A DNA stretch of 64,000 nt, taken from a virus. Where the stretch lies: IMG/VR virus record IMGVR_UViG_3300042691_042003, positions 62,001 to 126,000 of that record; one strand, 5' to 3'. Within the stretch, counting starts at the first letter, position 1. Each line of letters begins with the position of its first letter. The notes under the pieces are model-generated. The model saw only the letters and a program-made list of their open reading frames with translations, was not told where the DNA came from and made no database searches. Shown here piece after piece: positions 11,653-63,117 of the stretch. Made by a program: the position numbers and the translations under genes.

Positions 11653-12441
11653 ATGGGACTTATTAAATCGTACGATGAATTTATTAATGAGAATTTGTAT
11701 GGACAATATTCATATTATGGTGCAGGTTCTCTTTATCCAATCGTTAGTAAATTAGCAACTGAAGGAAAAAATCCTCAACAAATTTATCTTTATCTTACTA
11801 CTTTAGGTATTGATGAAGAAAGAAAAAGAAAAGTTATTACTCAAGTTTTTTTAAATGAATCTATAGATTTCGATTCTATTCAAGAAAAGGGAGGACTTTA
11901 TGAGGATGATGTAGAAGATATTCTTAAGGCAGATACAAAAGATCTTGAAAAGGGTATTGAACCTTCAAAAGCTAAATCTGAAAAAGATGAAGAAATAAAG
12001 AAAATTTTAGATACTTCTAAGTCTGATGAAGATGATGAAGAGAAAGAAGAAGAGAATGTAGAAAAGGATAAAGAAGACGTTTCTACGAAAGTTTCTGCTA
12101 TACAATCAGTTCTTAAAGATGCTCAAAAATTAGAAAAAATTAAGAAAATCCTTTCTGAATCTATGGGATTCGATATAGATGGAGTTGATGATGAAGTTTT
12201 AATGAATATTTTTAATTATCATAAAGTTATTGAAGCTCTTACTCCAGCAGAAAAAGATAAATTAAAACCTTCTGATTTTATATTTCCTGATAAAAGATCT
12301 TGGCCAATCCATGATGAAAAGCATGCTAAAACTGCTTTAGTTTGGGCTACTTGGCCTCAATATAAAAATATAAAAAATGAGGTAGTTTCTGCAGTTATTA
12401 AAAGATATCCACAACTAAAAGGAATAGGAGCTTCTAAATAA
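11653..12441 (+). CDS. Head-targeted internal protein candidate, 262 aa
   Basis: The protein begins MGLIKSYDEFINE followed by N, the first of a series of N-terminal tags that resemble the T4 internal-protein capsid-targeting sequence. Cleavage by the gp21-like protease would be expected after Glu13. The body has a helical domain (residues 20-75), a strongly acidic Lys/Glu/Asp linker (about 85-150), and a C-terminal domain ending PDKRSWPIHDEKHAKTALVWATWPQY... with conserved-looking Trp residues. That C-terminal part resembles small DUF-type domains in phage structural proteins (SFPDKRSYPIHD-like), a guess from memory. It follows a late-type promoter. Confidence 0.7.
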   Translation: MGLIKSYDEFINENLYGQYSYYGAGSLYPIVSKLATEGKNPQQIYLYLTTLGIDEERKRKVITQVFLNESIDFDSIQEKGGLYEDDVEDILKADTKDLEKGIEPSKAKSEKDEEIKKILDTSKSDEDDEEKEEENVEKDKEDVSTKVSAIQSVLKDAQKLEKIKKILSESMGFDIDGVDDEVLMNIFNYHKVIEALTPAEKDKLKPSDFIFPDKRSWPIHDEKHAKTALVWATWPQYKNIKNEVVSAVIKRYPQLKGIGASK

Positions 12442-12469
12442 AAAGATTATAATAAAAAAATCCATAAAA

Positions 12470-14029
12470 ATGTCTAAACTTAAAACAAGTTACAGTACAA
12501 TCTCTTTAAGAGATAATCTTTCTAATCTATACAAAGATTTAGATAAAAACACTTTGTACTCTTCTATTTTATCACTTCGCCTTAATACAGTTTTAGAAAT
12601 GCAAAAAAATGAAATACATTCTTCTATTTTTTCTGATTCTGACGAAGATAAAGGATTTATTTCTCGTCTTTCTATTGTAGAAAATTTGATTAAAGATTTG
12701 AAGATGTATAATTTTGTTCCTTCTATTAAGAAATTTATAGAAGAAAATGAACAAATCTTAGAAGAAAATAAATTAGAAATAGCTGTAGAGAAAACTTTGC
12801 ATTCTCTTAAAAATGATAAAAATACAAAATTCTACGAAAAAGCTATAATTGATCTAAAGGAATCTTTTGAAACAGAAAATCCTTTATTTTCTATCGTAGA
12901 AAATATGAAACAGCACGTTTGGATTCCTTCTATTAAAAATCTTTATGAATTTGCTAAATTTCAAAAAGGATCTATTACTGAAGTAAACCCTAATTTTAGA
13001 GTAACTAAAATTTATTCTCCAGTAGAACCTATAAATGAAAATTCATTTAATTTTTATTCTTCAGGAAAGGTTCTTAATTATAATGACGGTGAAATTACTG
13101 AATCAGAATCTAAAACTTCGGAAGATTTTAATTTCTTAGTTTCTATTGTTGAATCTGCTAAAATTACAGATAATAATATTAGATTCCTATTTAATAATTC
13201 AATTCTTGATATTAAATTAGGAGAGGATAAAAAAGCCTTAGTAAATCATAAAATTGTTGAATCTAAAAATTTAAGAGATTATCTTCTTTCAACTGCTTTA
13301 GTTCCTTATTCAGAAAAAAATAAAGTAGCTATTTTCGAAAGAGCTCTCGAAAAAGGATCAGATATTAAAGAAATCGATCTTGGATATAAAGTTACTTCTA
13401 ATATATATGAAGGTCTTTCTTGTTCTATATTTAATTCAAATAACAGAATTTTTATTCAGAAAGTAAATAAAGGAATGAAAGAAAATTCTATAGTTGAAGC
13501 TGAATCTCCTTCTGATGCAGTTAATATTGTTAAGAATTTTATGAATTTTGATATTTCTGAATCTATTAAGGATTTAATTGTAACAGAATCTATTGAAATT
13601 GCTAAAAGAAAAGAAGAAACTGAAAAAATTAAAAATCGAATTGCTTTCTTAATGGAAAAGCTTGCTGAAGTAGAATCAGTTGAATCAGAAATTGGGAAGA
13701 ATCCTAGAATTTTAGAAGCTAAAAAACTTCTTGAAGATCAAATAATTGCTCAAAATAAAAAATTAAGTGTAATTGAAGGTGTAGAAATTCCTTTCACTCC
13801 TTCTATGGGAGGTCCTAAAGTAGGAACCGCTAAGATTGCAACAAAAAATGATTTAAAAGCTGGCAAAGAATACACATTAAATGGAAAAGGAGGATATATT
13901 TTCCAGGGTGTTGCCGATGATATTTATATTTTTAATCATAAAGATGAAACCGATCCTTCACCTATTCATATGAATAATGTAGAGGTAGAAAATTCTATCT
14001 CAAAAGGAGAAATCACTGAATGTTATTAA
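12470..14029 (+). CDS. Probable virion protein, 519 aa
   Basis: Not recognised. The N-terminal 120 residues are helical. The middle is mixed, with many Glu/Ser-rich segments. A coiled coil lies at about 375-440. The last 65 residues (TKNDLKAGKEYTLNGKGGYI to the end) form a small beta domain that is clearly related to the C-terminal domain of the protein at 16620 (SDMKPGKEYVL..., YQGVTDGVHIF..., SVISKGGVVEV). Possible L/I-x-E cleavage sites are numerous. The location beside tagged proteins and the late sigma gene suggests a head or scaffold component. GATTATAATAAAAAAAT upstream (12445) may be a weak late-type promoter. Confidence 0.6.
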   Translation: MSKLKTSYSTISLRDNLSNLYKDLDKNTLYSSILSLRLNTVLEMQKNEIHSSIFSDSDEDKGFISRLSIVENLIKDLKMYNFVPSIKKFIEENEQILEENKLEIAVEKTLHSLKNDKNTKFYEKAIIDLKESFETENPLFSIVENMKQHVWIPSIKNLYEFAKFQKGSITEVNPNFRVTKIYSPVEPINENSFNFYSSGKVLNYNDGEITESESKTSEDFNFLVSIVESAKITDNNIRFLFNNSILDIKLGEDKKALVNHKIVESKNLRDYLLSTALVPYSEKNKVAIFERALEKGSDIKEIDLGYKVTSNIYEGLSCSIFNSNNRIFIQKVNKGMKENSIVEAESPSDAVNIVKNFMNFDISESIKDLIVTESIEIAKRKEETEKIKNRIAFLMEKLAEVESVESEIGKNPRILEAKKLLEDQIIAQNKKLSVIEGVEIPFTPSMGGPKVGTAKIATKNDLKAGKEYTLNGKGGYIFQGVADDIYIFNHKDETDPSPIHMNNVEVENSISKGEITECY

Positions 14030-14030
14030 A

Positions 14031-14387
14031 ATGTACGTAAAACCTAAAGAATTCTATGAGGAAATTTGTATTTCCCTAGAACAAAAAAAGTTAACCAAAA
14101 AGGCACAGGATATGCTTATCCTTATTGCCTATAGAGCTAATACTAAGCTGACTTATGAAAACCCTATGGATAGGGAAGATTGTATTTCTTTTGCCCTTTT
14201 GGACCTTTTTAAATATTGGGATCGATTTAAACCTGAAAAAACAAAAAATGCGTTTGCTTTTTTTACACAAGTAGCAAAGAATGGTTATGCTAAAGGTTGG
14301 AATAAATTAAGACCTGGAAAATACAAAGGAACCATTTCTCTTAGTGGAAAAAGCAATGCAGATTCCGATGGAATATATTCTGTATAA
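14031..14387 (+). CDS. 55: Late sigma factor (T4 gp55-like)
   Basis: 118 aa (T4 gp55 is 185). The stretch from about 48 to 95, including DREDCISFALLDLFKYWDRF and then KPEKTKNAFAFFTQVAKNGY, closely follows the gp55 core, which reads roughly EMIADGIEASIKGLHNFD, then KNPHAYITQACFNAF. This is the sigma region-2-like domain that recognises the late TATAAATA box. The C-terminal clamp-binding tail of T4 gp55 is shorter here, ending SDGIYSV. With the gp45-like clamp (2493) and the GATATATAA boxes it forms a plausible late-transcription system. It starts one base after the previous gene and overlaps the next by one base. Confidence 0.65.
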   Translation: MYVKPKEFYEEICISLEQKKLTKKAQDMLILIAYRANTKLTYENPMDREDCISFALLDLFKYWDRFKPEKTKNAFAFFTQVAKNGYAKGWNKLRPGKYKGTISLSGKSNADSDGIYSV

Positions 14388-14839
14388 TGAAGAATCTTCT
14401 TACATACGATCAATTTAATGAACAATACCTTCCTTATTTTGGAGTAAAACAAGCCTTAGATGATTCTAAGAATTTCATTACGAATGAGGAAAAAATGTCT
14501 GATTTTCATAGAATTTATACTATGAGTCCTACTTGGTGGATTGCTTGGAAAAGAGAAAATGGAGAAGATTATGGAATTAAACAAGATGCATTTTCTAAAA
14601 CTTATTCGGTTTCTAAAGGAGGAAAAGTTTCTTTTATTTTTGATTATGGTAGAAATAAAGTTTTTACTAATGAATCTCCTGAAATTTTAAAGTTAAAAAA
14701 AGATTTATCTCAAAAAGAATTCGATAAAATAAAAGATAAAGCCGAAGGGGTTGGAAAACCCAAAGAAGATAAAGGAGAAAAGAAAGAAAAAAAGAAAGAA
14801 AAAGGAGCAGATGACATCATGTCATCATTAGGAATATAA
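14387..14839 (+). CDS. Tagged internal protein candidate, 150 aa
   Basis: Begins MKNLLTYDQFNEQYLP, a weaker version of the tag in which the cut would follow FNE. Residues 40-95 look like a globular domain (SPTWWIAWKRENGEDYGIKQ; KVSFIFDYGRNKVFTNES). The C-terminal 40 residues are a Lys/Glu-rich tail ending DDIMSSLGI. Its ATG overlaps the stop of the gp55-like gene (TAATG), so the two are translationally coupled. Function is unknown. Confidence 0.65.
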   Translation: MKNLLTYDQFNEQYLPYFGVKQALDDSKNFITNEEKMSDFHRIYTMSPTWWIAWKRENGEDYGIKQDAFSKTYSVSKGGKVSFIFDYGRNKVFTNESPEILKLKKDLSQKEFDKIKDKAEGVGKPKEDKGEKKEKKKEKGADDIMSSLGI

Positions 14840-14860
14840 AAAAAAATAAAAAAATAAAAA

Positions 14861-15778
14861 ATGAAAAATATTTTAACATTTGAAAACTTTATTAATGAAT
14901 CTTCGGATTTTAATGGCTTCGATAAAGACGACAATGATTTAATTTATGAATTAAATTACATGTATAATTTATTTGGATCCGGAAGGGATAACAGAAAAAC
15001 CAGGACATATGAATCTAATTTATTGTCTATTTATGAGTACTTTATGGAAAGTAACGAAGAATTTAGTCAATCTATCCTTGATAATTTACTTTTTGAAGCA
15101 GATGAAGAGAAAGAATTAAAAAAAGATATGCAAGCTAGAGATGAATTGGAAATGGGAGATAAATCACTTCCTATGAAAGTAGCTAGACTTATAACATGGA
15201 TTCCCCCTTTTACTCCAGTTAGAATAGGTTATGAACTTCTTAAAATTGTTGATAAAAAAGAAAAGATTAAGAAGCTTTTGAAAAATGTTCCTGAAGGTCC
15301 AAAAAAAGAAAAATTAAGAGCAGAATTAAATAATCTAAAACATAGTCAAGTTAATGCAGTTGCTCAATTAAAGAAAGCTAGAGTAACTAAAGAAGTAGGA
15401 ATTAGATATTCAAAACCTGATCAAGTTGTTCGTCAAGAAGTTAAACAAGTAAAGGATTCTTACAATTATGAAAACGACGAGGATATTCTAGAAAATATTT
15501 ATTTTGAAGGTCTTTCTAAGATTGTTAATATACTTGAAGCAAAAGGAAAAATTAGTGCTGAACAGAAAGAGAAAATTATGAAGCAAGCTGAATCTAAAGG
15601 TAAGGCCGAAGGAAAATCTTTAGCTTCAAAAGCTCAAAGTATTGCAAAGAAAATTTCTCAAAACCCTGATAAAAAGGCTGAAGCTTTAGACTCTTTAAAA
15701 CAAAAAGCAGAATCTGAAAAGGAAGCTTGGAAGAAATTAAAGCAAAAAGCAGAAGAAAAAGGAATTACTTTAGGATAA
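14861..15778 (+). CDS. Tagged internal protein candidate, 305 aa
   Basis: Begins MKNILTFENFINE followed by S. The tag would be removed after Glu13. The remainder is highly charged and mostly helical. A hydrophobic stretch near residues 105-128 (KVARLITWIPPFTPVRIGYE) might contact membrane. Long Lys/Ala/Glu-rich coiled-coil segments (about 125-180 and 225-300) follow. Additional possible protease sites occur (for example FLESNEE and LLFE). No enzyme motif is seen. Its stop overlaps the next ATG. Confidence 0.65.
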   Translation: MKNILTFENFINESSDFNGFDKDDNDLIYELNYMYNLFGSGRDNRKTRTYESNLLSIYEYFMESNEEFSQSILDNLLFEADEEKELKKDMQARDELEMGDKSLPMKVARLITWIPPFTPVRIGYELLKIVDKKEKIKKLLKNVPEGPKKEKLRAELNNLKHSQVNAVAQLKKARVTKEVGIRYSKPDQVVRQEVKQVKDSYNYENDEDILENIYFEGLSKIVNILEAKGKISAEQKEKIMKQAESKGKAEGKSLASKAQSIAKKISQNPDKKAEALDSLKQKAESEKEAWKKLKQKAEEKGITLG

Positions 15779-16593: not shown

Positions 16594-16610
16594 GATAAAT
16601 ATAAAAAAAT
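16594..16610 (+). promoter_or_regulatory. Late-type promoter (GATAAATATAAAAAAAT)
   Basis: GATAAATATAAA lies 26 bases before the next ATG. It deviates from GATATATAA at one position, as do the boxes at 29953 and 46389. Confidence 0.45.
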
Positions 16611-16619
16611 AAATTTTAA

Positions 16620-17015
16620 ATGAAAAATTTACTCTCTTTTGAAGAATACATTAATGAAAATTACATCCAAGAAGCCACAGATGCTGATGGGTTTGATCCT
16701 GCTAAAGGAAATGTAACAGATCCTGAAAAAGGTGATATTAAAGCAACTACTGGGAAAAATAATGACCCTGGATTTACTTCGGATCAAGCTCCTGATAAAA
16801 TTGCAAGTCCTGTTTCTACTATTTCTGATATGAAACCAGGTAAAGAATATGTTCTTACCGTAGATGGTAAAAAACATACTGATATGCTTTATCAAGGTGT
16901 TACTGATGGAGTTCATATTTTTAACGGAGAAGATAAGGCTCATGATATCACTTTTACCGATTCTGATTTATCCTCTGTTATCTCTAAAGGTGGTGTAGTA
17001 GAAGTTGCCGAATAA
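16620..17015 (+). CDS. Tagged internal protein candidate, 131 aa
   Basis: Begins MKNLLSFEEYINE followed by N, with a second possible cut a few residues later (IQE before A). A Pro/Lys/Asp-rich linker leads to a C-terminal beta domain of about 65 residues. That domain shares KPGKEYVL, YQGVTDGVHIFN and SVISKG with the end of the 519-aa protein at 12470, so the domain has been copied or exchanged. Function unknown. Confidence 0.65.
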   Translation: MKNLLSFEEYINENYIQEATDADGFDPAKGNVTDPEKGDIKATTGKNNDPGFTSDQAPDKIASPVSTISDMKPGKEYVLTVDGKKHTDMLYQGVTDGVHIFNGEDKAHDITFTDSDLSSVISKGGVVEVAE

Positions 17016-17033: not shown

Positions 17034-17513
17034 ATGCATTCAATAAAGAATAATAAACCTTCTAAGAAATCAGGATTTCAACAAGGTTATTTTCCTATAA
17101 ACGAATGTAAGAAATATCAAGGTAAAGGTCCTATAATTTATAGATCTTCTTGGGAGAAAAAATTTTGTTTATATTGTGAAAGGAATCCGGCGATCGTATC
17201 TTGGTCGTCGGAATCTTTCGTTATAAGGTATTTTAATCCTCTTGATAATAAATATCATAATTATTTCCCTGATTACGTTTTAAAATTAGAAAGCGGAGAA
17301 ATTTTTATAGTTGAAGTAAAACCTAAAGCTCAATTAATAAAACCGGATCCTCCAAAGAAAAAAACTCCTAAGGCTTTAAAGTCTTATAAATGGCTTTATG
17401 AAACTTGGGTTACAAATATGTGTAAAAAGGCTGCTGCCGAAGAATTTGCTAAAGAAAGAGGATGGAAGTTTCTTCTCGTAACTGAAGATTTTTTTAAAGT
17501 TAGATCAGAATAA
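17034..17513 (+). CDS. 4: Head completion protein (T4 gp4-like)
   Basis: Very similar in plan to T4 gp4 (150 aa), which readies the filled head for tail joining. Landmarks are GPIIYRSSWEKKFC (36-45), IVSWSSESFVIRY, HNYFPDYVLK and the KPDPPKKK-type loop. The pattern E41, D80 (FPD) and E94-x-K96 (VEVKPKAQ) matches a PD-(D/E)XK nuclease fold, so a DNA-trimming role is possible. It overlaps the following gene by one base. Confidence 0.85.
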   Translation: MHSIKNNKPSKKSGFQQGYFPINECKKYQGKGPIIYRSSWEKKFCLYCERNPAIVSWSSESFVIRYFNPLDNKYHNYFPDYVLKLESGEIFIVEVKPKAQLIKPDPPKKKTPKALKSYKWLYETWVTNMCKKAAAEEFAKERGWKFLLVTEDFFKVRSE

Positions 17514-18259
17514 TGAAATTAATATCTAATTTTTTAGAATATATAATAGATCTTTTAAATCTTCAGCTTAGTACTTCTACTGAAGGAGAGAAAGAAGAAA
17601 TTATTACGGCAAAAAATGCTTATGAATGGTTTCTTAAAGAATCCGAAGATAAGAATAGTAAAAGAGTTGAAATAAATAAAGATCCTCTTTTATATCCTGG
17701 TAAAATTTATGTTTTTAAATATAATGCAAAATACAAAAACGTTTTAGATTATTGGGATAAACATCCAATAGTTCTAGTTTTAGGAAATTTACAAGGGGAA
17801 AAAGGGAAAATCGTTTTAGGTCTTAATATTAGTTGGTATCCTCCTGCAGCTAGAAAGTATATTGTTGAAACAATCAGGAAAATATATTCCTCAAAATATA
17901 AAGAGGCTATTATGAAAAAAAGTTATCAAGCTAATTCTCAAGCCCCTGTTTATTTAGATTTATACCAACTTAAAAATTTTTTAGATCAATATGGATTTTC
18001 TTTTGCTTTGAGATCTTATATTCCTGGTCAGATAATAGCTCCTAAATATTGTATATGCTATGAAGATTGGGACAAAGCAGTTTTACTAGATCAACCTAGG
18101 ATTTTCCCTGAATTAGAAGTTAATGATCCTTTTTATTCTCTAAGAAATATTTATGAAGAATTTAAGAATCATATAAAATATCAAAGAAATAATAAATCTG
18201 ATTTAAAAATAAAAAGAGACGAAGCAAAAGCTAAAGGAAAATATAAATTTACTAAGTAA
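17513..18259 (+). CDS. Conserved phage structural protein candidate, 248 aa
   Basis: Contains PGKIYVFKYNAKYKNVLDYW, then KHPIVLVLGNLQGEKGKIVLG, then LNISWYPPAARKYI. I associate this pattern (FKY...P-Y-D-x-P-x-V-L...GLNxxxxPP) with a conserved protein of marine T4-like phages found among head/tail completion genes. It lies between the gp4-like gene and the portal. Candidate roles are DNA-end protector (gp2-like) or connector/baseplate component; none can be fixed from sequence alone. The basic C-terminus (KRDEAKAKGKYKFTK) could bind DNA. Confidence 0.6.
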   Translation: MKLISNFLEYIIDLLNLQLSTSTEGEKEEIITAKNAYEWFLKESEDKNSKRVEINKDPLLYPGKIYVFKYNAKYKNVLDYWDKHPIVLVLGNLQGEKGKIVLGLNISWYPPAARKYIVETIRKIYSSKYKEAIMKKSYQANSQAPVYLDLYQLKNFLDQYGFSFALRSYIPGQIIAPKYCICYEDWDKAVLLDQPRIFPELEVNDPFYSLRNIYEEFKNHIKYQRNNKSDLKIKRDEAKAKGKYKFTK

Positions 18260-18297: not shown

Positions 18298-19911
18298 ATG
18301 GCCGGTTTTGTAAATCGAGACGAAACTTCACAAGGAGCACCGACTCCTGCTGCAAGAAATTTAGTCAGTAAAGCATTAAAATCTCTTTCATCATTTGGAA
18401 TGATGTATGATGATATGGTGCTTAAAAATTCTAAAGCTATTGGTATTAATGAAGATCGATATGGTTGGAGGATGGATCCTCGAAATGTTGCAGGAGGAGA
18501 ATATGACGATTATGCACTTTTTGCTAATCTTTCAATGACTGATATCAATCTTAGAAAATCGATTTCTATTTTTGATAAATCATATCCAAAGAAAAGAGAA
18601 GATTTAAGAAAATTCGCTATCCAAGATGAAATTGAAGAAATTCTAGATACCCTTTGTGATGAAGCAATTGTTTATGACGATAAAAATTATTTTTGTTTCC
18701 CTCTCGCTTTTGATGATGAAACTCTTGAACCTGGAACTCTTGAAGCAATAAAAATTGCTCTTGATACTAATTTTAAAAGAATTTATCAGTATTTTGGATT
18801 TAATAATGATATAGCTGGATGGTCTTATTTCCGTAAATGGTTAGTTGATGGTTATCTTGCTTTTGAAATTATCTACAATAAAGATCAAACAAGAATTATT
18901 GGATTTAAAGAACTTGATCCTATTTATCTTGAGCCGGGTCTCGATAAAGAAGGAAAGAAAATTTGGAAACAATTTAAAGGTCAACCTAACAAAGAAAGAC
19001 TTATTTATGATTCACAAGTAATTTATATTTCATATGCAAACGTAAATACTGTTAATCGAGTTTCTTATGTTGAAAGATTAATTCGTTCTTTTAACCTTTT
19101 AAGGATTATGGAACATTCTAGAGTTATTTGGGCAACTGTTAACTCTTCATTTAAGACTAAATTTGTTATTCCAGTTGGAGGAAAATCAAAAACTCGAGCT
19201 AAACAATCTCTTGGAGTTCTTATGCAGAATTACAGAGAACAAATTGATTTTGATACTGATTCAGGAGAACTAAAAGTTAATGGTAAACCAATGATGCCTT
19301 TCAATAAAGAATATTGGTTACCTTCCGGTGAAGCTGGAGAACCAACTATTGAAACAATCGGCAATGATGGACCTGATCTTTCAGATACTGAAGCTCTTAA
19401 ATATTTTAGAGAGAAGCTGATTAAGGTTTCTAAAATCCCCCTTTCAAGATTTGATATGGAATCTCCTCCTTCTTGGGAAATGAATGCTGAAGGGATGACT
19501 AGAGATGAAATTAAATTTGGTCGTTTTATTACTCGTCTTCGTTCTGTATTCCAAGAAATTCTAGTAAAACCTCTTTGGATTCAAATGTGTTTAGATTTCC
19601 CTGAATTGAAAGATGATGATGCGTTTAAAGCACAAATTGGAGTAAAATATCATAAATATAATATTTTTGAAGAAATGAAAGAAATTGAAATTCTTCAAAA
19701 AAGATTAGATTTTGTAACTTCAATGAAAGATGGCCTAGTTGAAACCGATGCAAATATGAATGAAATTAAATATTTTGCTTCTGAATTCTTAATACAAAGA
19801 TTCTTAGGTCTTACTCCGGATGATCTAAGAGTTAATAGAAAACTTAAAGAAATTGAAGATCGAGAAAAGATAGAATTAGCTAAAAAATCAGCTGAAGCTA
19901 CTGGAATATAA
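18298..19911 (+). CDS. 20: Portal vertex protein (gp20)
   Basis: 537 aa (T4 gp20 is 524). Forms the dodecameric ring through which DNA enters and leaves the head and on which head assembly starts. Recognisable segments include YDDYALFANLSMTDINLRKS near the N-terminus and ILDTLCDEAIVYDD. In the C-terminal half, MESPPSWEMNAEGMTRDEIK and FGRFITRLRSVFQEILVKPL match T4 portal motifs of the type EMTRDEIKFTKFI. It is followed by the protease gene, as in T4. Confidence 0.93.
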   Translation: MAGFVNRDETSQGAPTPAARNLVSKALKSLSSFGMMYDDMVLKNSKAIGINEDRYGWRMDPRNVAGGEYDDYALFANLSMTDINLRKSISIFDKSYPKKREDLRKFAIQDEIEEILDTLCDEAIVYDDKNYFCFPLAFDDETLEPGTLEAIKIALDTNFKRIYQYFGFNNDIAGWSYFRKWLVDGYLAFEIIYNKDQTRIIGFKELDPIYLEPGLDKEGKKIWKQFKGQPNKERLIYDSQVIYISYANVNTVNRVSYVERLIRSFNLLRIMEHSRVIWATVNSSFKTKFVIPVGGKSKTRAKQSLGVLMQNYREQIDFDTDSGELKVNGKPMMPFNKEYWLPSGEAGEPTIETIGNDGPDLSDTEALKYFREKLIKVSKIPLSRFDMESPPSWEMNAEGMTRDEIKFGRFITRLRSVFQEILVKPLWIQMCLDFPELKDDDAFKAQIGVKYHKYNIFEEMKEIEILQKRLDFVTSMKDGLVETDANMNEIKYFASEFLIQRFLGLTPDDLRVNRKLKEIEDREKIELAKKSAEATGI

Positions 19912-19929
19912 TATTCTCAGTTAACCCTT

Positions 19930-19946
19930 GATATATATAAAAAAAT
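19930..19946 (+). promoter_or_regulatory. Late-type promoter before protease gene
   Basis: GATATATATAAAAAAAT lies 27 bases before the start, the same spacing as other late-type boxes. Confidence 0.55.
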
Positions 19947-19956
19947 AGAAGCCTAA

Positions 19957-21801
19957 ATGAGCAATTATTTACTTGTACTAGAAAGATCTGAAGGTAATCT
20001 TGCAGTTTCGAAAGAAGGCGATAAGTATGTCCTAGAAGGAATTTTTACTGAAATCGGAGTAAAGAATAAAAATAATAGAATTTACGACGAAAAAGAATTA
20101 CTTCCACATATTGAAGAGCTACAAACAAAATTAAAAGGAAATAAACTTCTTGGAGAACTAGATCATCCTAAATCTTTTGATATTTCTCTTAGAAATGCAT
20201 CACATGTAATAGAAGATATTAGCTATGATAAAGGGTCTAAGAAAGTTACTGGTAGAATTCGTTTACTTAATACGGATGCCGGTAAACAAGCTATGGCTCT
20301 TGTTGACGCTGGAGTTCCTCTTCATATTTCTAGTAGAGCTGCTGGTGTTGTTGAAGGTAATGGTCATGTAAAAATTAAGAAAATGTTTACTTATGATTTA
20401 GTTGCAGATCCTGGATTTGCTAACGCTGAATTAAAAAGAGTAAACGAATCTTTTGGATTTTCTGATGACGATTTAATTCAAATATTTGAAATTCCTAGCA
20501 CAATAGACGAATCATTTGTTGATGATAAATATACAAAACAAACAAAAAAAGAAGAAATGGATTCTAATCAATACATCAAGGTTGAGGATTTCAATGAATA
20601 TACCAAGCATTTAAAAGAAGAAATCGACGGATTGAAAAAATCTTTAACCGAATCTAAAAATTCAAACGATTCTGAAATCAATGAAGGTTTAGTTCGTTAT
20701 GCTGAAGAAACAGCAAAGAGAGTAAATCAAATCCAAGAATATGTTGGAAAACTTGCCGAATCGGTTGATGGTCTTATTTCACATAACGATTATATCGTTG
20801 AAAATCTAGAAAAAGTTAAAGATTATGCTGAAATGGTTGGAGAAAGATCTAATCAAGGTATTAATTATGCTGAGAAGCTTGCTGAATCGGTAGATCATCT
20901 TATCGAATATACCAAGATAATTGCTGAGAAAGCTGATCAAGGTATCGAATACACTAAGCATATTGCTGAAATGACAGATAATAATATCGAATACACAAAG
21001 CACGTTGCTTTAAAAGCTGATCAAGGTATCGAATACACTAAGTATATCGCTAATGAAAATTCTAATCGTTGGAATTATCAAACCTATATGAATGAGCAAC
21101 TTGATAATGTAATTTCTCATAACGATTATATCGTTGAAGGAACTTCTTCTATTATTGAATATACTGAATATCTCAAAGAACAAACCGAAAATCTTGCTAA
21201 TTACATGAACCATGTGGTTGAAAAGATTAATGAAGGATTTGTTCCTAATTCTTTTGAACCTAAAGATGATTTTGAAAAAGAAATTTCTGAAAAAATCGGA
21301 TCTATTTTAGAATCAGTTAAAGAAGAGGTTTCTTTTGAAAAGAAAGATAATAATTTGAATTTCTTAAATTTCCTTTCTGAAAGTAAAAGAAATCAATTCC
21401 ATTCTCTTAACGATGATATGAAAGAAAGAGTTATTTCTACATTTGAATCTAATAAATATTATGGTTCTGCTGATGCAGAAAAGCTTTTCGAATCTATCTT
21501 TATTATTCAAGCCCCTGTAATGAATTGGCTATCTAATATGCCTTCTAAATACAGAGAAGCATGGAACGGACTTAATGAATCTCAGAAAAATGCAATCAAA
21601 GCTCAAGCTTCTGTTAGAAATCTTGATACTCAATACAAAATTGACGATTTCTGGTCTACAAGAGATTTAAGAACTGTTAAAGTTGAAACTCCTCTTACTG
21701 AATCTAATGAAACAGTAATTGAAGAATCCCCTAAATATGTAACTCCTTCTACATATATGCAAACAGTTGAAGACGAATTAAGAAGGAGATTTAAAAGATA
21801 A
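19957..21801 (+). CDS. 21: Prohead protease fused to scaffold core (gp21-gp22-like)
   Basis: Residues 1-165 form a gp21-type prohead protease with catalytic His70 (GELDHPKSF) and Ser125/126 (PLHISSRAAG). It would cut head proteins after L/I-x-E type sites during maturation. Residues 170-614 are a long, charged coiled coil. This includes five 14-residue repeats (302-371) of the type IEYTKxIAEKADQG, a pattern expected of a scaffold such as T4 gp22. In T4 these are separate genes. An internal site, LKRVNE before SFGF (about residue 164), would let the protease release itself from the scaffold. Several later sites (EINE/G, LTE/S) could dismantle the core. It lies between portal and capsid genes. 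Confidence 0.85.
   Translation: MSNYLLVLERSEGNLAVSKEGDKYVLEGIFTEIGVKNKNNRIYDEKELLPHIEELQTKLKGNKLLGELDHPKSFDISLRNASHVIEDISYDKGSKKVTGRIRLLNTDAGKQAMALVDAGVPLHISSRAAGVVEGNGHVKIKKMFTYDLVADPGFANAELKRVNESFGFSDDDLIQIFEIPSTIDESFVDDKYTKQTKKEEMDSNQYIKVEDFNEYTKHLKEEIDGLKKSLTESKNSNDSEINEGLVRYAEETAKRVNQIQEYVGKLAESVDGLISHNDYIVENLEKVKDYAEMVGERSNQGINYAEKLAESVDHLIEYTKIIAEKADQGIEYTKHIAEMTDNNIEYTKHVALKADQGIEYTKYIANENSNRWNYQTYMNEQLDNVISHNDYIVEGTSSIIEYTEYLKEQTENLANYMNHVVEKINEGFVPNSFEPKDDFEKEISEKIGSILESVKEEVSFEKKDNNLNFLNFLSESKRNQFHSLNDDMKERVISTFESNKYYGSADAEKLFESIFIIQAPVMNWLSNMPSKYREAWNGLNESQKNAIKAQASVRNLDTQYKIDDFWSTRDLRTVKVETPLTESNETVIEESPKYVTPSTYMQTVEDELRRRFKR
20860..21069 (+). repeat. Five 42-base tandem repeats in the scaffold region
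   Basis: Units start at 20860, 20902, 20944, 20986 and 21028, each encoding 14 residues that begin INYAEK, IEYTKI, IEYTKH, IEYTKH and IEYTKY. Fourteen residues is two heptads, as expected for a coiled-coil rod that can lengthen by duplication. Confidence 0.85.
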
Positions 21802-21894: not shown

Positions 21895-23529
21895 ATGTAT
21901 TTAATTAACGAACAAGAAGTTTTCGGTAAATGGGCTCCAATTATCGAATCAACTACCGGCATTCAGGATCGTTCTAAAGTTGAATGGATGTCTAAGTACT
22001 GTCATTATCATGAATTGTACGAAAATAATAACCTCGCTCAACTTGGTGCTGTAAATGGCATGGGAGCTACTCGTTTCCCTGGAGATCCAGGAACTCAAAG
22101 TCAGTTCTTCTCTCAAGAAACTGGTTCTGGTGATAAGGCTCACACTCTTCTTCCTCTTGCTATGCAAGTTGCAGCTCAGACTGTAGGTCTTGATCTAGTT
22201 CCTGTTGTACCTATGCCTGGTCCTATGGGTGTTCTTACCTATCTTGACTTCGTATATGGTGGTGGTAAAACTAATGGTACTGGTGCTAACATTCCTCTCC
22301 TTGTAAAAGTTGATGTAGGATCTACTGCTGCTCCTGGTGCTGCTGGAACTACTGGAGGTATTACTTATACTTATGTAGGACCTTCTCGTATTGACGGTAA
22401 TGCTATATTCCATATTACTGGTTCTCTTACTACTGGTACTATTCTTTCTAATATGTATGCTTCTGCTGGTTCTACTAACCTTAACAATGTTAAATATACT
22501 GGAGCTGTTACTAAGGTTGAATTAGTTAAAGCTCTCGAAGATCATATTACTGGTTTCTCTGGAGATTCTCTTCGTGCTGGAATTTATGCAGATACTGCTA
22601 ATAATGGTGTTAATGATCCTCTTTCTCGTTTTGATGGTGAAGGAACTCAAGATAACATCATGAACTTAAGCCTTTTCAACAAATCTGTTGAAGCTAAAAC
22701 TTTCCAAGTTGCTGCTGCTGTTACTCGTGAGCAAGTTCAGGATCTTAAGCAATTTGGAGTTGATGCTGTTTCTCAGGTTGAATCTGTTCTTATTAACGAA
22801 CTTACTCAATCTATCAACAAGAACATTCTTTCTAGAATCTTCGCTCTTGGTGAAAGAAACCACTCTCAAGTTATTTCTACTCAAGGTCTTAACTTCTTCT
22901 TGAACCTTGGTTCTATTCCTAGATTAGTATCTTATGCTTCTGTTACTAACGCTCCTTATACTGCTTTTGCTTCTTATCTTAGCAGCAATTACAGTAATTT
23001 AACAGGTGCTACAATGAACGCAACTGAAAATTCTTCTTCACCTGCTGAAAACCTTTCTACTCGTCAGCGTAAGATCATGTCTAAGATCCTTGCAATTGCT
23101 AACCTAATTGCTATCCGTGGTCGTCGTGGTCCTGCTACTTTCGTAGTAACTAACGGTCAAGTATGTTCTGCTCTTCAGGATGTAGCTGGTTTCGTACCTG
23201 CTCCTATGGCTAACACCATCAATCAGATGAGCGGTTCTCTTTACCCAATCGGTACCCTTGCTGGTCTTGCTATCTACAACGATCCTAACATGGCTTGGAA
23301 CGATACTCGTTTCTGTGTAGGTCGTAAAGGTGATGGTAATTCTCCAGGACTCGTATTTATGCCTTACTTGATGGCTGAATCTGTTCAGACTATCGCTGAA
23401 GGTACTATGGCTCCTAAGGTTGCTGTTAAGTCTCGTTATGCTCTCGTTGAAGCTGGTTTCCACCCACAAACCATGTATTTAACTTCCGGAGTTCATATCG
23501 ATTCTCTTATCGCTGGAGGTTTAGTATAA
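21895..23529 (+). CDS. 23: Major capsid protein (gp23)
   Basis: 544 aa (T4 gp23 is 521). Builds the prolate or isometric head shell. The N-terminus MYLINEQEVFGKWAPIIEST resembles the T4 gp23 start, whose first 65 residues are removed by gp21. A likely cut here is after LYE43. Later motifs include ITREQVQDLKQFG-like (VTREQVQDLKQFGVDAVSQV) and RGRRGPATFVVTNGQV, which match the T4 capsid fold. Codon use is more biased to C-ending codons in the second half, as expected for a very highly expressed gene. A strong terminator follows. Confidence 0.95.
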   Translation: MYLINEQEVFGKWAPIIESTTGIQDRSKVEWMSKYCHYHELYENNNLAQLGAVNGMGATRFPGDPGTQSQFFSQETGSGDKAHTLLPLAMQVAAQTVGLDLVPVVPMPGPMGVLTYLDFVYGGGKTNGTGANIPLLVKVDVGSTAAPGAAGTTGGITYTYVGPSRIDGNAIFHITGSLTTGTILSNMYASAGSTNLNNVKYTGAVTKVELVKALEDHITGFSGDSLRAGIYADTANNGVNDPLSRFDGEGTQDNIMNLSLFNKSVEAKTFQVAAAVTREQVQDLKQFGVDAVSQVESVLINELTQSINKNILSRIFALGERNHSQVISTQGLNFFLNLGSIPRLVSYASVTNAPYTAFASYLSSNYSNLTGATMNATENSSSPAENLSTRQRKIMSKILAIANLIAIRGRRGPATFVVTNGQVCSALQDVAGFVPAPMANTINQMSGSLYPIGTLAGLAIYNDPNMAWNDTRFCVGRKGDGNSPGLVFMPYLMAESVQTIAEGTMAPKVAVKSRYALVEAGFHPQTMYLTSGVHIDSLIAGGLV

Positions 23530-25285: not shown

Positions 25286-25766
25286 AATTCGTAGACAAAA
25301 TGCAGGCAAAACACCTACAAAATACGGAATAGTTACAAAAGGTCTAAAACCTAGATATAAAAAAGTTCTTAATGAAAATCCGGTTATTAAGAAATATTCG
25401 GATGATGATAGGTTCATACAGGCCATCTTCAGGATTGAAGATGAGAAGATAAGATTATCCCATTTACAAAGGCCGTTTGTTCACCCTGTGTCAAAAGAGA
25501 TATACACGTTTGAATGTATTAAAGACTCTTATAAAATATTTAATTGGGAATGTGCTTATTGTAAAATTCCAATACAATCGAGAATAGATAGATTTAGTCC
25601 TGATAATTTTACATGTGAAAAATGCTATAAGTACTATATTAAAGATTCTAAAAAAATAAATCAAAGAATTATTGAGTCTTCACTTTCTTTTACCGAAAAA
25701 TGTAAGAGGATGATGATAGATAATCAGAAATCATTCTTAAAATATCTAAAGAAAAATGAAAAATAG
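25278..25766 (+). CDS. Small zinc-ribbon-like protein, 162 aa
   Basis: Basic protein with a four-Cys cluster: C92 and C95 (CAYC), then C113 and C116 (CEKC). This spacing fits a zinc ribbon. A further Cys occurs at 80. The basic N-terminal region (GLKPRYKKVLNENPVIKKYS) could contact nucleic acid. It overlaps the preceding gene by 8 bases and the RimK-like gene by 11 bases. Base composition in 25400-25510 is a little less AT-rich than its surroundings. A late-transcription co-activator or a structural zinc protein are both possible; unproven. Confidence 0.6.
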   Translation: MVEIRRQNAGKTPTKYGIVTKGLKPRYKKVLNENPVIKKYSDDDRFIQAIFRIEDEKIRLSHLQRPFVHPVSKEIYTFECIKDSYKIFNWECAYCKIPIQSRIDRFSPDNFTCEKCYKYYIKDSKKINQRIIESSLSFTEKCKRMMIDNQKSFLKYLKKNEK

Positions 25767-27231
25767 GTTCGATTATTTTGATCAATTTGTTTTAAATGAA
25801 GCTAAGAAAAATAAAACCCCTAAGATTAAGGTTCTTATGCTCTCAAATATTAGTGAAGAATCTTATACTGTTCCTGCAGTTGAAGCCGAATGTAAAAAGA
25901 GGGGGATAGTTTTCCGTATTATCGATATTAACACTTGCTCTTTAATTAAAGATAAGAAAGGAGACGGTTATATTATAAATGATAAAACTAAGGTTCCTTT
26001 TAAAATAGATTCTGAAGACACAGCTATACTTACTAGAAGAGGAGTCGTTAGAAGTACTATGACGAGAGATCTTATTTCTCAATTAGAGGATGCCAATTTC
26101 TTTGTTGTTAATACTCTTGAATCTATTCTTGCTTGTGAGAATAAATTTGTCACTTCAAAAATTCTTATGAATGCTGGAATTCCAGTTCCTAAAATGGCAA
26201 TTGTTGATGGTGAAGAATCTATCGATTCAGCTCTAAAAGAAATAGGTGGTCAATTTCCTATAGTTCTTAAAATGCTTTCAGGATCTCATGGTATTGGAGT
26301 TTCTATTATTGAATCTCTCGCTTCTCTTAAATCGGTTTTACAAACTATGTGGAAAATCGATCCAAATATCGAAACTCTTATTCAAGAAAAAATTGATTCT
26401 GATTACGATCTAAGAATCCACGTTCTTACTAAAAGATTTAATTCTCCTTCTCCGGATGAAACCGATTCAGTTCTCCTTGGTTATATGAGACGTAATAGAG
26501 TTAAAAAAGATTTCAGAACTAATTATTCTCTTGGAGGAACGGTTGAAAAAACTAAGGTTACTCCTGAACAAGAAAAAATTGCGATTGAGGCTGCTAAAGC
26601 TGTAGGTTGTAATTGGTGCGGTGTTGATCTGATCGTTGATAAGAAAACGAAGAAAAATTATGTTCTTGAAGTTAATTCTTCTCCAGGAACACAAGGTTTG
26701 AAAAAAGCTACAGGAGTCGACGTAGTAAAAGATATAGTTGATTTTCTTTCGGATAAAAAGAATTGGATTAGATCTCGTAGAGTTATAGGTTTTAGAGAGG
26801 TAATAACAATTCCAGAAATAGGTGATGTTATTGCTAAATTTGATACTGGTAACGGAGCTATGTCTTGCTCATTAACTTACGATACTGCAGAATTAATTGA
26901 TGGAGATAAATTTATCGAATGGGAATTAGGAGGTAAAAAATTCAAAAGTAAAGTAGTAGGATTTTCTACTGCTGAAGTCGGTCCTAAAACACACGAAAGG
27001 CCTACTATTCTTATGGACATATCTTTTGCAGGTAAAACTTATAAAGATGTTGAAGTTTCTCTAGTAGACCGTAAAGAAAAATCTACTAAATTCTTAGTAA
27101 ATAGAAAATTCATGGAAAGAATAGGATGTTCTGTTTCTCCTTATAAAACATTTATGATTACTTCTTTTGATGGAGAATATTCAGCAAGAGATGCAAAAGG
27201 AGATCCACATGCAGGAATAAAATTTATATAA
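25756..27231 (+). CDS. Tagged RimK-like ATP-grasp ligase fused to a retropepsin-like (PF05618-type) domain
   Basis: Begins MKNRFDYFDQFVLNE before AKKNK, a head-targeting tag with a cut after Glu15. Residues 23-340 match RimK: the ATP-grasp loop VLKMLSGSHGIGVS (about 171), EKIDSDYDLRIHVL, KKDFRTNYSLGGTVEK, GVDLIVDKKTKKNYVLEV and NSSPG (metal-binding Glu and Asn, about 303-311). RimK enzymes add glutamate residues to protein C-termini, classically ribosomal protein S6. Residues 345-491 resemble the RimK-associated retropepsin-like domain (so-called ATP-dependent zinc protease). They carry FDTGNGAMSC with candidate catalytic Asp363, then ERPTILMDISFAGKTYKDVE and FLVNRKFMERIGCSV. A packaged, injected protein-modifying enzyme is inferred, analogous to the T4 Alt strategy but with different chemistry. 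Confidence 0.85.
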   Translation: MKNRFDYFDQFVLNEAKKNKTPKIKVLMLSNISEESYTVPAVEAECKKRGIVFRIIDINTCSLIKDKKGDGYIINDKTKVPFKIDSEDTAILTRRGVVRSTMTRDLISQLEDANFFVVNTLESILACENKFVTSKILMNAGIPVPKMAIVDGEESIDSALKEIGGQFPIVLKMLSGSHGIGVSIIESLASLKSVLQTMWKIDPNIETLIQEKIDSDYDLRIHVLTKRFNSPSPDETDSVLLGYMRRNRVKKDFRTNYSLGGTVEKTKVTPEQEKIAIEAAKAVGCNWCGVDLIVDKKTKKNYVLEVNSSPGTQGLKKATGVDVVKDIVDFLSDKKNWIRSRRVIGFREVITIPEIGDVIAKFDTGNGAMSCSLTYDTAELIDGDKFIEWELGGKKFKSKVVGFSTAEVGPKTHERPTILMDISFAGKTYKDVEVSLVDRKEKSTKFLVNRKFMERIGCSVSPYKTFMITSFDGEYSARDAKGDPHAGIKFI

Positions 27232-27233: not shown

Positions 27234-27485
27234 ATGAAAAAGCTAAAAAATATTCAATCAATTGAAGAATATTTAGGAGAAGCAGCAGGTTCTCCTAATA
27301 CAGAAAATTATATGTTTTTTGAAAATCTAAAAACTATAAAACAAAGTATAGAAGAACTTATGACCCTTGATCCTATTATGGTAGATCAAATTCTTCAAGA
27401 TGGTCATGATTGGGCAGAAGATCATATTGCAACTGCTAAGGAATCAATCGATCAGGTTACTCACTTTTTTATGAACAAAAAATAA
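27234..27485 (+). CDS. Tagged small protein, 83 aa
   Basis: Begins MKKLKNIQSIEEYLGE before AAGS, a variant tag in which the cut would follow LGE. The rest is helical and acidic (ENLKTIKQSIEELMTLDPIM; DQILQDGHDWAEDHIATAKE). It starts two bases after the RimK-like gene and could be its partner or simply another packaged protein. A terminator that can serve both strands follows at once. Confidence 0.65.
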   Translation: MKKLKNIQSIEEYLGEAAGSPNTENYMFFENLKTIKQSIEELMTLDPIMVDQILQDGHDWAEDHIATAKESIDQVTHFFMNKK

Positions 27486-29976: not shown

Positions 29977-30231
29977 ATGAAAAATTTCCCTTCTTATGAA
30001 GAATTCTTAAATGAAGGAAATTGGTCTCAAATGATGAAAGGTGTAAGAACTGGTTCGGTCCCTTACACTATTGTTGCTATCGATAGAGTAGCTAAAAAAG
30101 TCGTAGGCCAAGAAATCGTTAGTATTCGTGATGCAGTTCCTGCTTATTACGAAGATATGAAACGTAGATTCTCTAAGTTTCATTTACATATTGAAGATTC
30201 TACTGGAAAGGTAGTTTGGTCAGAAAAATAA
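29977..30231 (+). CDS. Tagged internal protein candidate, 84 aa (array gene 1)
   Basis: Begins MKNFPSYEEFLNE before GNWS. The mature protein would be about 71 residues with a beta-alpha-beta look (VPYTIVAIDRVAKKVVGQEI; RRFSKFHLHIEDSTGKVVW). It opens a run of eight consecutive genes whose first 13 codons are related. Small and basic, it would fit the role of an injected internal protein. Function unknown. Confidence 0.7.
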   Translation: MKNFPSYEEFLNEGNWSQMMKGVRTGSVPYTIVAIDRVAKKVVGQEIVSIRDAVPAYYEDMKRRFSKFHLHIEDSTGKVVWSEK

Positions 30232-30239: not shown

Positions 30240-30617
30240 ATGAACACACATATTAAATCATTTAATGAATTCCTTAATGAAAGTGTAAATGATCCTGTTC
30301 TCGTTGCTTTACGTGCTGCTAAAGAAGATCGTAAAAAGATGATGATGGATAAGAAAGAAAGAATGAAAAGGCGAGTTTACGGTGCAAAACGTGAACAAAT
30401 GGAAGCTGAGCTAGATAAAATCTGGCAAGAAATTAAGGATAATAAGCAGCAACAATCTGATCTTTGGAGAGAAATGGAAGCCGAGGCCGGTGATAAGAGC
30501 CCAAACTTTTCAGATGCAGATGGCAACCGTTATGGTCAAAAATTCAACGATCTTGATGATGAATTAGAAAAGCTTTATCGTCGTCGTTCTGAATTAGAAA
30601 CAAAATTAGCATATTAA
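30240..30617 (+). CDS. Tagged coiled-coil protein, 125 aa (array gene 2)
   Basis: The ATG at 30240 gives MNTHIKSFNEFLNE before SVND; an upstream in-frame TTG is ignored because it would bury the tag. The rest is a nearly continuous helix with basic clusters (KEDRKKMMMDKKERMKRR) and a Gln/Glu-rich second half. DNA binding inside the head is conceivable given the basic part. Confidence 0.7.
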   Translation: MNTHIKSFNEFLNESVNDPVLVALRAAKEDRKKMMMDKKERMKRRVYGAKREQMEAELDKIWQEIKDNKQQQSDLWREMEAEAGDKSPNFSDADGNRYGQKFNDLDDELEKLYRRRSELETKLAY

Positions 30618-30871: not shown

Positions 30872-31699
30872 ATGAAAAATATCCCTTCTTTTGAAGAATT
30901 CGTAAACGAAAGTTTGAACGAATCTCTTAGCTTAACTCTTAGGGATGTTCCTAAAATCGTTAAGGATTTCGTTTCGAGGACTAAATATATCAAAAATCTT
31001 AAAGAAAAAGATTGGTTAACTGCATCGGAAATTATCATAGTAACTGATAAAGATTTTGATATAAAAGGTAAATCAACAACTGGCAATTATATGTTGCTAG
31101 GACTTTATAAAACTTATGGACCTGTTTATAAAGTTGAATGGGCATCCGTAAGACCTGATATGAAATATCCTGCTAATGCTGGAATCTATAATAAAGAGAT
31201 TGATAAAGCCACATGGGAAAAACTAAAAAATGCCCATGAAAGAAAAATGATCGATCCAAAAAGTCTTACGGCTAATGATATTAAAAACACAGGAGATCTT
31301 TTAGGTAAATTCATAACCGATGAAATTAATACATCTTCGGTTCCTGTTAAAGGTCAATTTGATCCAACAAATTCAGGATCAATTAAAATGGAAATTGAAA
31401 GTGCTTATAAAGATTCAGAAGTTAGTATCGTTAGAGGAGATAATGTAAGAGTAGATTTCTACTTTAAACGTGCTGGTGATGGCCGTAATGTTGCTAAAAC
31501 TAATCTATTCTTTATCATAGATCCTTCTCAACAATCGGTAGAATTTAAAAATCCTGATGTTAGTGGTCTTAGTAGAGCAAACTACAGAAATATGAGAGAT
31601 ATTTCAGCATTCTTTAAGAGTTCTATTCAAGCTTGGAAGGATGAAGATAAGAGAAGATCAGATGCTATGCAACAAACAGCATTTAGTCAAGATAGATAA
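30872..31699 (+). CDS. Tagged internal protein candidate, 275 aa (array gene 4)
   Basis: The start chosen at 30872 (one base after the previous stop) gives MKNIPSFEEFVNE before SLNES, so two cuts six or so residues apart are possible (VNE and LNE). The mature part is alpha/beta with NYMLLGLYKTYGPVYKVEWA and a second domain from about 165 (VRVDFYFKRAGDGRNVAKTN). No enzyme motif is recognised. It is among the largest members of the array. Confidence 0.7.
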   Translation: MKNIPSFEEFVNESLNESLSLTLRDVPKIVKDFVSRTKYIKNLKEKDWLTASEIIIVTDKDFDIKGKSTTGNYMLLGLYKTYGPVYKVEWASVRPDMKYPANAGIYNKEIDKATWEKLKNAHERKMIDPKSLTANDIKNTGDLLGKFITDEINTSSVPVKGQFDPTNSGSIKMEIESAYKDSEVSIVRGDNVRVDFYFKRAGDGRNVAKTNLFFIIDPSQQSVEFKNPDVSGLSRANYRNMRDISAFFKSSIQAWKDEDKRRSDAMQQTAFSQDR

Positions 31700-62123: not shown

Positions 62124-62127
62124 AAAT

Positions 62128-62181
62128 GTTAATAACTTTTTCAAAACTATTTTTATTTTTGGAATATATTTATTATATTTG
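62128..62181 (+). promoter_or_regulatory. Early-type promoter before sigma gene
   Basis: GTTAATAA at 62128-62135 and TATATTTG at 62174-62181, spaced 46 bases start to start. The sigma gene starts 18 bases after the box. Confidence 0.75.
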
Positions 62182-62198
62182 TATATCTTAAAATTCAT

Positions 62199-62807
62199 AT
62201 GGCAAAAAAACAAAAAACAGATTCTCTCAAAGATCTCGGCTATCAGTTTAAGCAAACTCGATCCGAAAAAGTATTTACCGAGCTTTATAATCGAATCAGA
62301 CCAGGACTTTATAATTACATTTTCCAAATCGTTAAGAATAATGACGATACCGAAAATCTAATTTCTCACGTAATGTCTACTGTCTATAACAAGATCGATA
62401 CATACGACCCTAAATGGCATATTTCAACTTGGATTTATCGAATTGCTTATACATGCGCTTGCATGGAATTACGCTTCCGTAAAGCAAGAAAAATCACTCA
62501 TATGTCTCAATTAGAACAATCAGAAAACAAAAATCTGATCTCTAAAATCGAATTCGAATCTCTTGAAACTTATAAAGATGATCTAATTCTTAACGAAGAA
62601 ATTCAAGAGAAAGAAAACGATACGAATCGTCTACATTCTATTATCAAAAATCTACCTGAAGAATATCGAATCGTAATTGAAGAAAAATTCTTTAACGATA
62701 TGAAATATGATGAAATTGCACAAAAGCTAAACATACCTCTTCATACTGTTAAAAACCGAATCTCTCGAGGAAAAAGAATTATTAAAGAGAAGTACGGGAA
62801 TATATAA
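62199..62807 (+). CDS. ECF-type sigma factor
   Basis: 202 aa. Region 2 lies at about 24-95 (FTELYNRIRPGLYNYIFQIV; STWIYRIAYTCACMELRFRK) and region 4 at about 150-200 (LPEEYRIVIEEKFFNDMKYD; EIAQKLNIPLHTVKNRISRG), the complete layout of extracytoplasmic-function sigma factors. The N-terminal 20 residues are basic. It would redirect host RNA polymerase. It is expressed from an early-type (host-recognisable) promoter, so it may switch on the next class of phage promoters, for example TCTTACATAT. It is distinct from the gp55-like protein. Confidence 0.92.
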   Translation: MAKKQKTDSLKDLGYQFKQTRSEKVFTELYNRIRPGLYNYIFQIVKNNDDTENLISHVMSTVYNKIDTYDPKWHISTWIYRIAYTCACMELRFRKARKITHMSQLEQSENKNLISKIEFESLETYKDDLILNEEIQEKENDTNRLHSIIKNLPEEYRIVIEEKFFNDMKYDEIAQKLNIPLHTVKNRISRGKRIIKEKYGNI

Positions 62808-62820
62808 ATAAAAAGGATTC

Positions 62821-63117
62821 ATGAAAAATACAAAACTTCCTTCTTTCAAAGAATTTAATAAGACTTTTGAAGATGTAAAAGTTGAAGAAGCTATGGGTGT
62901 TGCTTCTAAAAAGCTACAAAAGGCAACTGAAGAATTCCATAGTGCTCAATTAGAACTTCAAAAGCTACAAAAACAATTTGTAGGTCTTGCTAAAGATGAT
63001 TCAAAAAGAGAAAGCATGAAACAAAGCATCCTTAATCAGCATAAAATAGTAAAACAAAAGGAAGCAATATTTGCTAAAGCTCTCGGTGATGAAGATATTG
63101 AAGACCTTGAAATCTAA
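62821..63117 (+). CDS. Tagged coiled-coil protein, 98 aa
   Basis: Begins MKNTKLPSFKEFNKTFEDVK; the tag is less regular than others and a cut could follow VEE before A (about residue 24). The rest is a heptad-rich helix (QKATEEFHSAQLELQKLQKQ) with an acidic end (GDEDIEDLEI). Probably packaged or a scaffold-like helper. Confidence 0.6.
   Translation: MKNTKLPSFKEFNKTFEDVKVEEAMGVASKKLQKATEEFHSAQLELQKLQKQFVGLAKDDSKRESMKQSILNQHKIVKQKEAIFAKALGDEDIEDLEI

Follow-up and report, generated by a model that had tools for sequence, protein, structure and literature searches.

A near-identical 13-residue peptide forms the N-terminus of about 33 proteins encoded by a giant T4-like phage, and the bodies behind it are otherwise mostly unrelated. 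This peptide, called the tag below, was studied starting from the window, a stretch of 64,000 nucleotides (positions 62001-126000) of the 246,081-base virus contig IMGVR_UViG_3300042691_042003 from IMG/VR. The tag most likely represents a capsid-targeting sequence of the T4 internal-protein type, and we put the probability that the tagged proteins are loaded into the head and trimmed there at about 0.82.

The contig, which has a gene total of about 345-393, is judged to belong to a T4-like phage because its portal protein, prohead protease and major capsid protein match PF07230, PF03420 and PF07068. By capsid protein, the nearest named record is an uncultured 462 kb phage (55% identity), followed by Lak, Tenacibaculum, Sphingomonas PAU and Chryseobacterium phages, and close relatives are numerous in IMG/VR.

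The tag and the selection acting on it

The tag was described by a profile of nine columns, [ST][FY][ED]EF[LIV]NE[SANG], trained on 25 tags. An earlier note on this DNA had listed 15 or more tagged proteins for the window. Each of its 15 main starts does encode the tag at the position given, but 18 further members elsewhere in the genome had been missed, which brings the total to 33, two of them degenerate forms admitted by eye and homology. Within the window, the tag at 14387 (MKNLLTYDQFNEQ) has the aromatic half and lacks L-N-E, the one at 25756 (MKNRFDYFDQFVLNEA) carries one additional residue ahead of the final LNE↓A (the arrow marks the predicted cut), and the one at 27234 is divergent (SIEEYLGEA). 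The start at 62821 (MKNTKLPSFKEFNKTFEDVK), proposed as a weaker member, has the aromatic half only; it does not qualify and was left out of the count.

At a threshold of at least 12 bits, the genome contains 28 N-terminal matches and one internal match, compared with a mean of 0.5 N-terminal matches for column-permuted profiles. With shuffled N-termini, matches averaged 0.23 and never exceeded 2, compared with 29 observed, and 23 of the 25 training tags kept a score of at least 12 when left out of the training set. A chance origin of the tag set is excluded. Individual matches that arise by chance or belong to other families were discounted, namely MPTSVP... and MISFSEFLFKK... in this genome, and a match at 35693 of L104 that resembles an HNH-type protein. 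Clustering sorts the 33 bodies into 27 groups that show no detectable similarity to one another; clade-wide, the tag fronts 82 unrelated body clusters, although these body sets were chosen by profile and their column statistics have to be read accordingly.

Tags are also found in relatives. In a 254 kb relative, the 12-bit threshold returns 29 tagged proteins, and the 462 kb phage has 17 in the 390 kb read, in a dialect of its own (MKYIxxYxxFLxE). Further afield, the profile matches one protein in Tenacibaculum phage PTm1 and two in the cultured Chryseobacterium phage MA9V-2, which has four tag-like proteins when the threshold is lowered to 11 bits. In MA9V-2 (L103), the capsid protein's own start is tag-like (MVDRWSEFINEA, 19815-21497), and a small gene after the portal gene (15645-15893) begins MKTFTYFINEA. 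A Lak phage stretch, read with the TAG codon as Q, yielded no convincing tags and no repeats. A literature search on the motif letters found no paper, and no mention of such a tag occurs in the passages found of a jumbo-phage survey (PMC7824862).

Residues shared between pairs of tags use the same codon in 65.5% of cases, compared with 67.8% expected from codon usage, and the corresponding values within a cassette of eight tagged genes (Table 1) are 0.643 and 0.647. Since synonymous codons are as mixed as usage predicts, selection acts on the peptide and the DNA has not simply been copied; recent DNA copying would give much higher codon identity, and leader duplication was rejected on the basis of this test. 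More generally, the common start might be a DNA-level feature without any peptide function, such as a duplicated leader, a recombination site or a translation-initiation element, which would agree with the clustering of the tagged genes and with the AT-rich ATG AAA AAT that opens many of them. This is highly improbable in view of the codon figures, inside the cassette as well as outside, and of the tag-like motifs that also occur within the scaffold. In addition, the presumed cleavage glutamate (Glu13) is invariant in the 11-member family of the 15778 protein, in which most other tag residues vary.

The spacing of the tag is the same as in the targeting sequence of T4 IPIII, including the residues known to matter, which bears out the likeness to T4 pointed out in the earlier note. 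In IPIII, residues 4 and 7 govern targeting and residues 8 and 10 processing (PMC9026906). The RimK-like protein at 25756 has an insertion between the aromatic half and L-N-E↓A, yet its relatives keep the tag, with both halves and varied spacing, which suggests two separable functions, as in IPIII. Furthermore, bodies exchange behind the tag, as the KTSC body is separately tagged in this genome and is fused behind another tagged body in the relative G001.

Prohead protease, cleavage motif and scaffold repeats

The prohead protease makes up the N-terminal portion of the scaffold polypeptide, and its top Foldseek match is T4 gp21 (5jbl, E 3e-7). Two giant phages have a second, shorter prohead-protease-like match (LR756500, 154846-155151; LR756501, 11437-11787). 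The end of the tag is the same likely cleavage motif, L/I-x-E followed by a small residue, as the end of the capsid propeptide and the sites in the scaffold. Some 43 residues into the capsid protein, directly ahead of the mature arm, the core clade conserves an L-x-E↓[NS] site. It reads LYE↓N in this genome, elsewhere LNE↓S or LNE↓N, and FLNE↓S in MA9V-2, and it is absent in some distant homologues. The scaffold half contains 13 [LI]xE[SAGN] sites where 1.7 are expected, and every sampled relative shows an excess. Per 100 residues, the motif occurs 2.4 times in the scaffold, 0.41 times in tagged bodies and 0.37 times in untagged proteins. The second highest density among proteins of more than 100 residues belongs to the untagged protein encoded at 12470..14029, which is probably a second scaffold or core protein.

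Head targeting and trimming by the prohead protease are thus well supported at the level of sequence. In the mechanism that we favour, the first half of the tag, with aromatics at -6 and -3 from the glutamate and acidic residues between, would dock the protein into the growing prohead core, and the [LIV]-N-E↓[SAGN] end would then be cut by the gp21-type protease to release the body inside the head. An AlphaFold2 model of the 15778 protein places the tag, at low confidence, separate from the fold.

The scaffold itself repeats a tag-like motif. Its residues 245-426 consist of about 13 tandem units with a spacing of 14 and a clade consensus of xIxY[ST]E[YF][LIV]AE[NK], and tag and repeat share one register (aromatic at -6, Glu at -4, aromatic at -3, L/I/V at -2 and Glu at 0). 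The column correlation between the two is 0.42 at this register, 0.24 at the next best and near zero at most others. Both aromatics are present at 15.1% of the [LIV]xE sites of the scaffold, compared with 1.3% in other proteins, and other aromatic spacings are not enriched to that degree. A profile made from the repeats only separates tagged from untagged genes with an area under the curve (AUC) of 0.90 in this genome and 0.83 in G001. On T4, its two best N-termini are IPII and IPIII, which count as one event because both share one leader; none of 300 column-permuted controls reached this ranking. Towards the C-terminal side, alignment A2 reveals another tag-like motif, H-F-x-x-F-L-x-E, in which F469 and F472 are invariant and H468 and L473 near-invariant. 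The repeats are modelled by AlphaFold2 as a long helix of low confidence, therefore no structural claim is made from it. The array was detected in this clade's phages and in two giants, of 735 kb and 462 kb; it was not found in T4, PTm1 or MA9V-2, nor in those parts of the PAU, pT24 and Lak sequences that were read.

These observations suggest that the tag probably imitates one 14-residue unit of the tandem repeat, which would draw tagged proteins into scaffold assembly and expose them to the same protease. Whether such mimicry is the docking mechanism is, in our estimate, an even question. Several points weigh against it. Column-permuted controls match or exceed the AUCs in 2 (this genome) and 7 (G001) of 300 trials, and the sequences compared, being related, are not independent. 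Moreover, the repeats of this genome score low under the tag profile (best 5.0 bits), those of relatives being clearer, and a search of T4 gp22 for the repeat gave no significant match (P 0.14), so that mimicry is inferred for this clade and is only a suggestion for T4. A preference of the protease shared by both kinds of site could explain part of the likeness. It might even account for all of it, with targeting depending on another receptor, as the lack of recognisable repeats in gp22 would allow and as the single near-invariant site at scaffold residues 468-475, possibly a mere cut site, would also permit. This alternative is a serious one but somewhat less probable than docking by mimicry, because both aromatics coincide, beyond L-x-E, at one register only and other aromatic spacings are less enriched.

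A different destination, such as a replication compartment or a host structure, with a convergent likeness to T4, could be proposed from tagged genes that lie far from the head genes (genome positions 150639, 153000, 231681 and 240364). We consider it improbable, since scaffold repeats co-occur with the tags, the protease motif matches and both profiles recover T4 IPII and IPIII. In the most far-reaching reading, capsid targeting in giant T4-like phages would work by mimicry of the scaffold: a repeat unit placed at any N-terminus would serve both as an address into the core and as a protease substrate, and such an open address would have let the lineage build a very large stock of exchangeable proteins that are packaged and injected. 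We rate the chances for and against this reading as a whole about equal.

Conserved head-module proteins and a variable cassette

The features of the window are collected in Table 1.

Table 1. Tagged genes, head genes and cassette borders in the window (window coordinates; scores in bits are those of the tag profile)
Positions	Strand	Feature	Evidence or remark
11653..12441	+	tagged head-module protein, MGLIKSYDEFINE↓N	24.0 bits; homologues in relatives tagged too
12470..14029	+	untagged 519-aa protein, candidate second prohead-core protein	13 [LI]xE[SAGN] sites
14387..14839	+	tagged protein, degenerate tag MKNLLTYDQFNEQ	L046 homologue with fuller form MKNLPSYQEFLEEN
14861..15778	+	tagged protein, MKNILTFENFINE↓S	23.6 bits
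15778..16593	+	tagged head-module protein, MKNLKTYEEFLNE↓S	28.2 bits; Glu13 unchanged among 11 homologues
16620..17015	+	tagged protein, MKNLLSFEEYINE↓N	23.4 bits; 34 homologue matches in relatives
17034..17513	+	head closure/completion protein (gp4-like)	phrog_218, E 2.3e-42
17513..18259	+	DNA end protector (gp2-like)	phrog_429, E 4.6e-27
18298..19911	+	portal protein (gp20-like)	PF07230, E 8e-71
19957..21801	+	prohead protease fused to scaffold, 614 aa	PF03420 (Peptidase S77), E 3.6e-12
20689..21234	+	scaffold repeat array, 13 tandem 14-aa units, tag-like	xIxY[ST]E[YF][LIV]AE
21358..21381	+	near-invariant tag-like motif, scaffold residues 468-475	alignment A2
21895..23529	+	major capsid protein (gp23-like)	PF07068, E 8.4e-36
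22015..22026	+	predicted capsid propeptide cleavage site L-Y-E↓N	kept as L-x-E↓[NS] in clade
25756..27231	+	tagged RimK-like ATP-grasp protein, YFDQFVLNE↓A, one inserted residue	PF08443, E 3.4e-35
27234..27485	+	tagged small protein, MKKLKNIQSIEEYLGE↓A	17.4 bits
28990..29943	+	clamp-loader large subunit (gp44-like), left cassette border	syntenic marker; function predicted from sequence
29977..30231	+	tagged cassette protein 1	26.8 bits; single homologue, G001 133183
30240..30617	+	tagged cassette protein 2	27.1 bits; tagged homologues L027, L050, L054
30619..30870	+	tagged cassette protein 3, orphan	29.8 bits; no homologue found
30872..31699	+	tagged cassette protein 4, orphan	28.0 bits
31715..32014	+	tagged cassette protein 5, orphan	28.6 bits
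32026..32583	+	tagged cassette protein 6, orphan, GTG start	27.1 bits
32600..33427	+	tagged cassette protein 7, orphan, GTG start	26.8 bits
33430..33669	+	tagged cassette protein 8	29.4 bits; body related to tagged protein at genome 183655, E 4e-6
33784..35037	+	RNase H-like nuclease, right cassette border	syntenic marker; function predicted from sequence

The tagged genes adjoining the portal gene are common to many relatives; their products may be head-assembly proteins instead of cargo and would probably help to build the head. The gap between the clamp-loader and RNase H genes, two conserved genes of replication, is variable: it holds eight tagged genes here, but none, one or two in relatives, and the two border genes are nearly adjacent in most of the more distant relatives. 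For most of the eight cassette bodies, no homologue was found in the sets searched.

Matches to Pfam, PHROGs and PADLOC indicate functions for only a few bodies, and most match no known family. Other recognisable tagged bodies are a cytidylyltransferase of the NMNAT type, a family 2 glycosyltransferase, and KTSC and DUF5856/Dps-like proteins. An amino-acid ligase such as the RimK-like protein would be unusual as a packaged protein. The tagged cytidylyltransferase/NMNAT-like enzyme, encoded outside the window (genome 150639-151217), could supply an early NAD-related activity. Alignment A1, which covers 82 tagged clade proteins, includes individual sequences with a match to pentapeptide repeats (E 3.6e-47) and with a weak one to a cysteine methyltransferase fold (E 7e-5). 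PADLOC produced no more than six weak, single matches. The ATP-grasp, NMNAT-like, glycosyltransferase, KTSC and DUF5856 bodies are not proven to be anti-defence proteins.

The variable tagged proteins, for example those of the cassette, would probably be cargo delivered with the DNA, partly for counter-defence. Injection and counter-defence are plausible for this set, and we would give the idea of injected counter-defence cargo about even odds; the "anti-defence and host-takeover kit" envisaged in the earlier note is likewise an inference from sequence. Alternatively, the tag might target the core while its bearers include many core or assembly proteins whose fate is degradation or expulsion, leaving no large injected cargo. 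The tagged genes at 11653-17015, next to the portal gene and with homologues in many relatives, are compatible with this, as are T4 gp67, gp68 and gp22, core proteins that gp21 degrades (PMC9958956). It is nevertheless unlikely, given that tagged bodies are poor in internal protease motifs when set against the scaffold and that the cassette orphans are missing from relatives with conserved gene order, which fits accessory cargo.

Comparison with T4 and other packaged proteins

Over the T4 genome, the tag profile at 9 bits or more has N-terminal matches only in IPII, IPIII and gp61.1. The T4 sequence quoted in the earlier note is correct for IPII and IPIII. IPI is not recognised because its cut site lies further from the aromatics. 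Gp61.1 (AF158101, 18966-19130), an uncharacterised protein of 54 residues, starts MKTFKEFIKED and scores above IPII and IPIII; it is a candidate for a further targeted T4 protein.

The leader of IPIII is a proven capsid-targeting sequence (Mullaney and Black 1996, as described in PMC9026906 and PMC9958956). T4 IPI, IPII, IPIII and Alt share with the tagged proteins a short N-terminal peptide, a gp21-type protease and unrelated bodies behind one leader. In IPII and IPIII, moreover, the peptide has the same two aromatics, at -6 and -3, and terminates in L/I-x-E. As in T4-type targeting systems, a peptide in the size range of about 10-19 residues, with two aromatics and L/I-x-E, is accompanied by a gp21-family protease, the cleavage motif recurs in other head proteins and unrelated bodies follow one leader. 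The bodies themselves show no sequence relation to internal proteins or to defence-associated families in Pfam, among the PHROGs matches listed or in PADLOC, and none of the known T4 internal-protein families appears in Pfam or among those PHROGs matches. T4 has three internal proteins and Alt, whereas about 33 tagged proteins are encoded here, an expansion of about ten times that confirms the earlier note. The fusion of protease and scaffold is a further difference from T4, as are the tag-like tandem repeats, which were not found in gp22.

T4 IP1-3 are injected and inhibit distinct GmrSD enzymes, have only the leader in common and are encoded in hot spots (PMC12373910). They are known inhibitors of type IV restriction, whereas the cargo here is putative. 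Variable gene hot spots are shared by both systems, and the cassette looks like the T4 arrangement at a larger scale. Similarly, the T-even internal-protein loci are described as hot spots for non-homologous proteins with only the leader in common (Repoila 1994, cited in PMC12373910). At least 10 different internal proteins are reported there across phages; the single genome studied here carries roughly three times as many, spread over several clusters. How internal proteins come to lie in the T4 core has been described as still mysterious (PMC9958956), and a scaffold that visibly repeats the targeting motif makes this question directly testable and suggests how such tags are recognised. Moreover, a short N-terminal profile is a tool to list the probable injected proteins of giant T4-like phages, and such lists should be a rich source of candidate anti-defence proteins because T4 IP1-3 all block type IV restriction (PMC12373910).

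Phage P1 also carries anti-restriction proteins, the Dar proteins, in its head, and for DarB the first 30 residues are enough to have it packaged; however, these proteins have no common N-terminal consensus and no separate scaffold is known (PMC9024508). In phiKZ and SPN3US, which have inner-body ejection proteins, a gp21-related protease trims many head proteins, the cut following a short motif whose last residue is Glu, but the propeptides described for SPN3US are long (>100 residues) and do not form one shared short tag (PMC7411985, PMC9026906). Systems of this kind are already known; what is new, to judge by the literature searched, is the scale of this one and its scaffold repeats.

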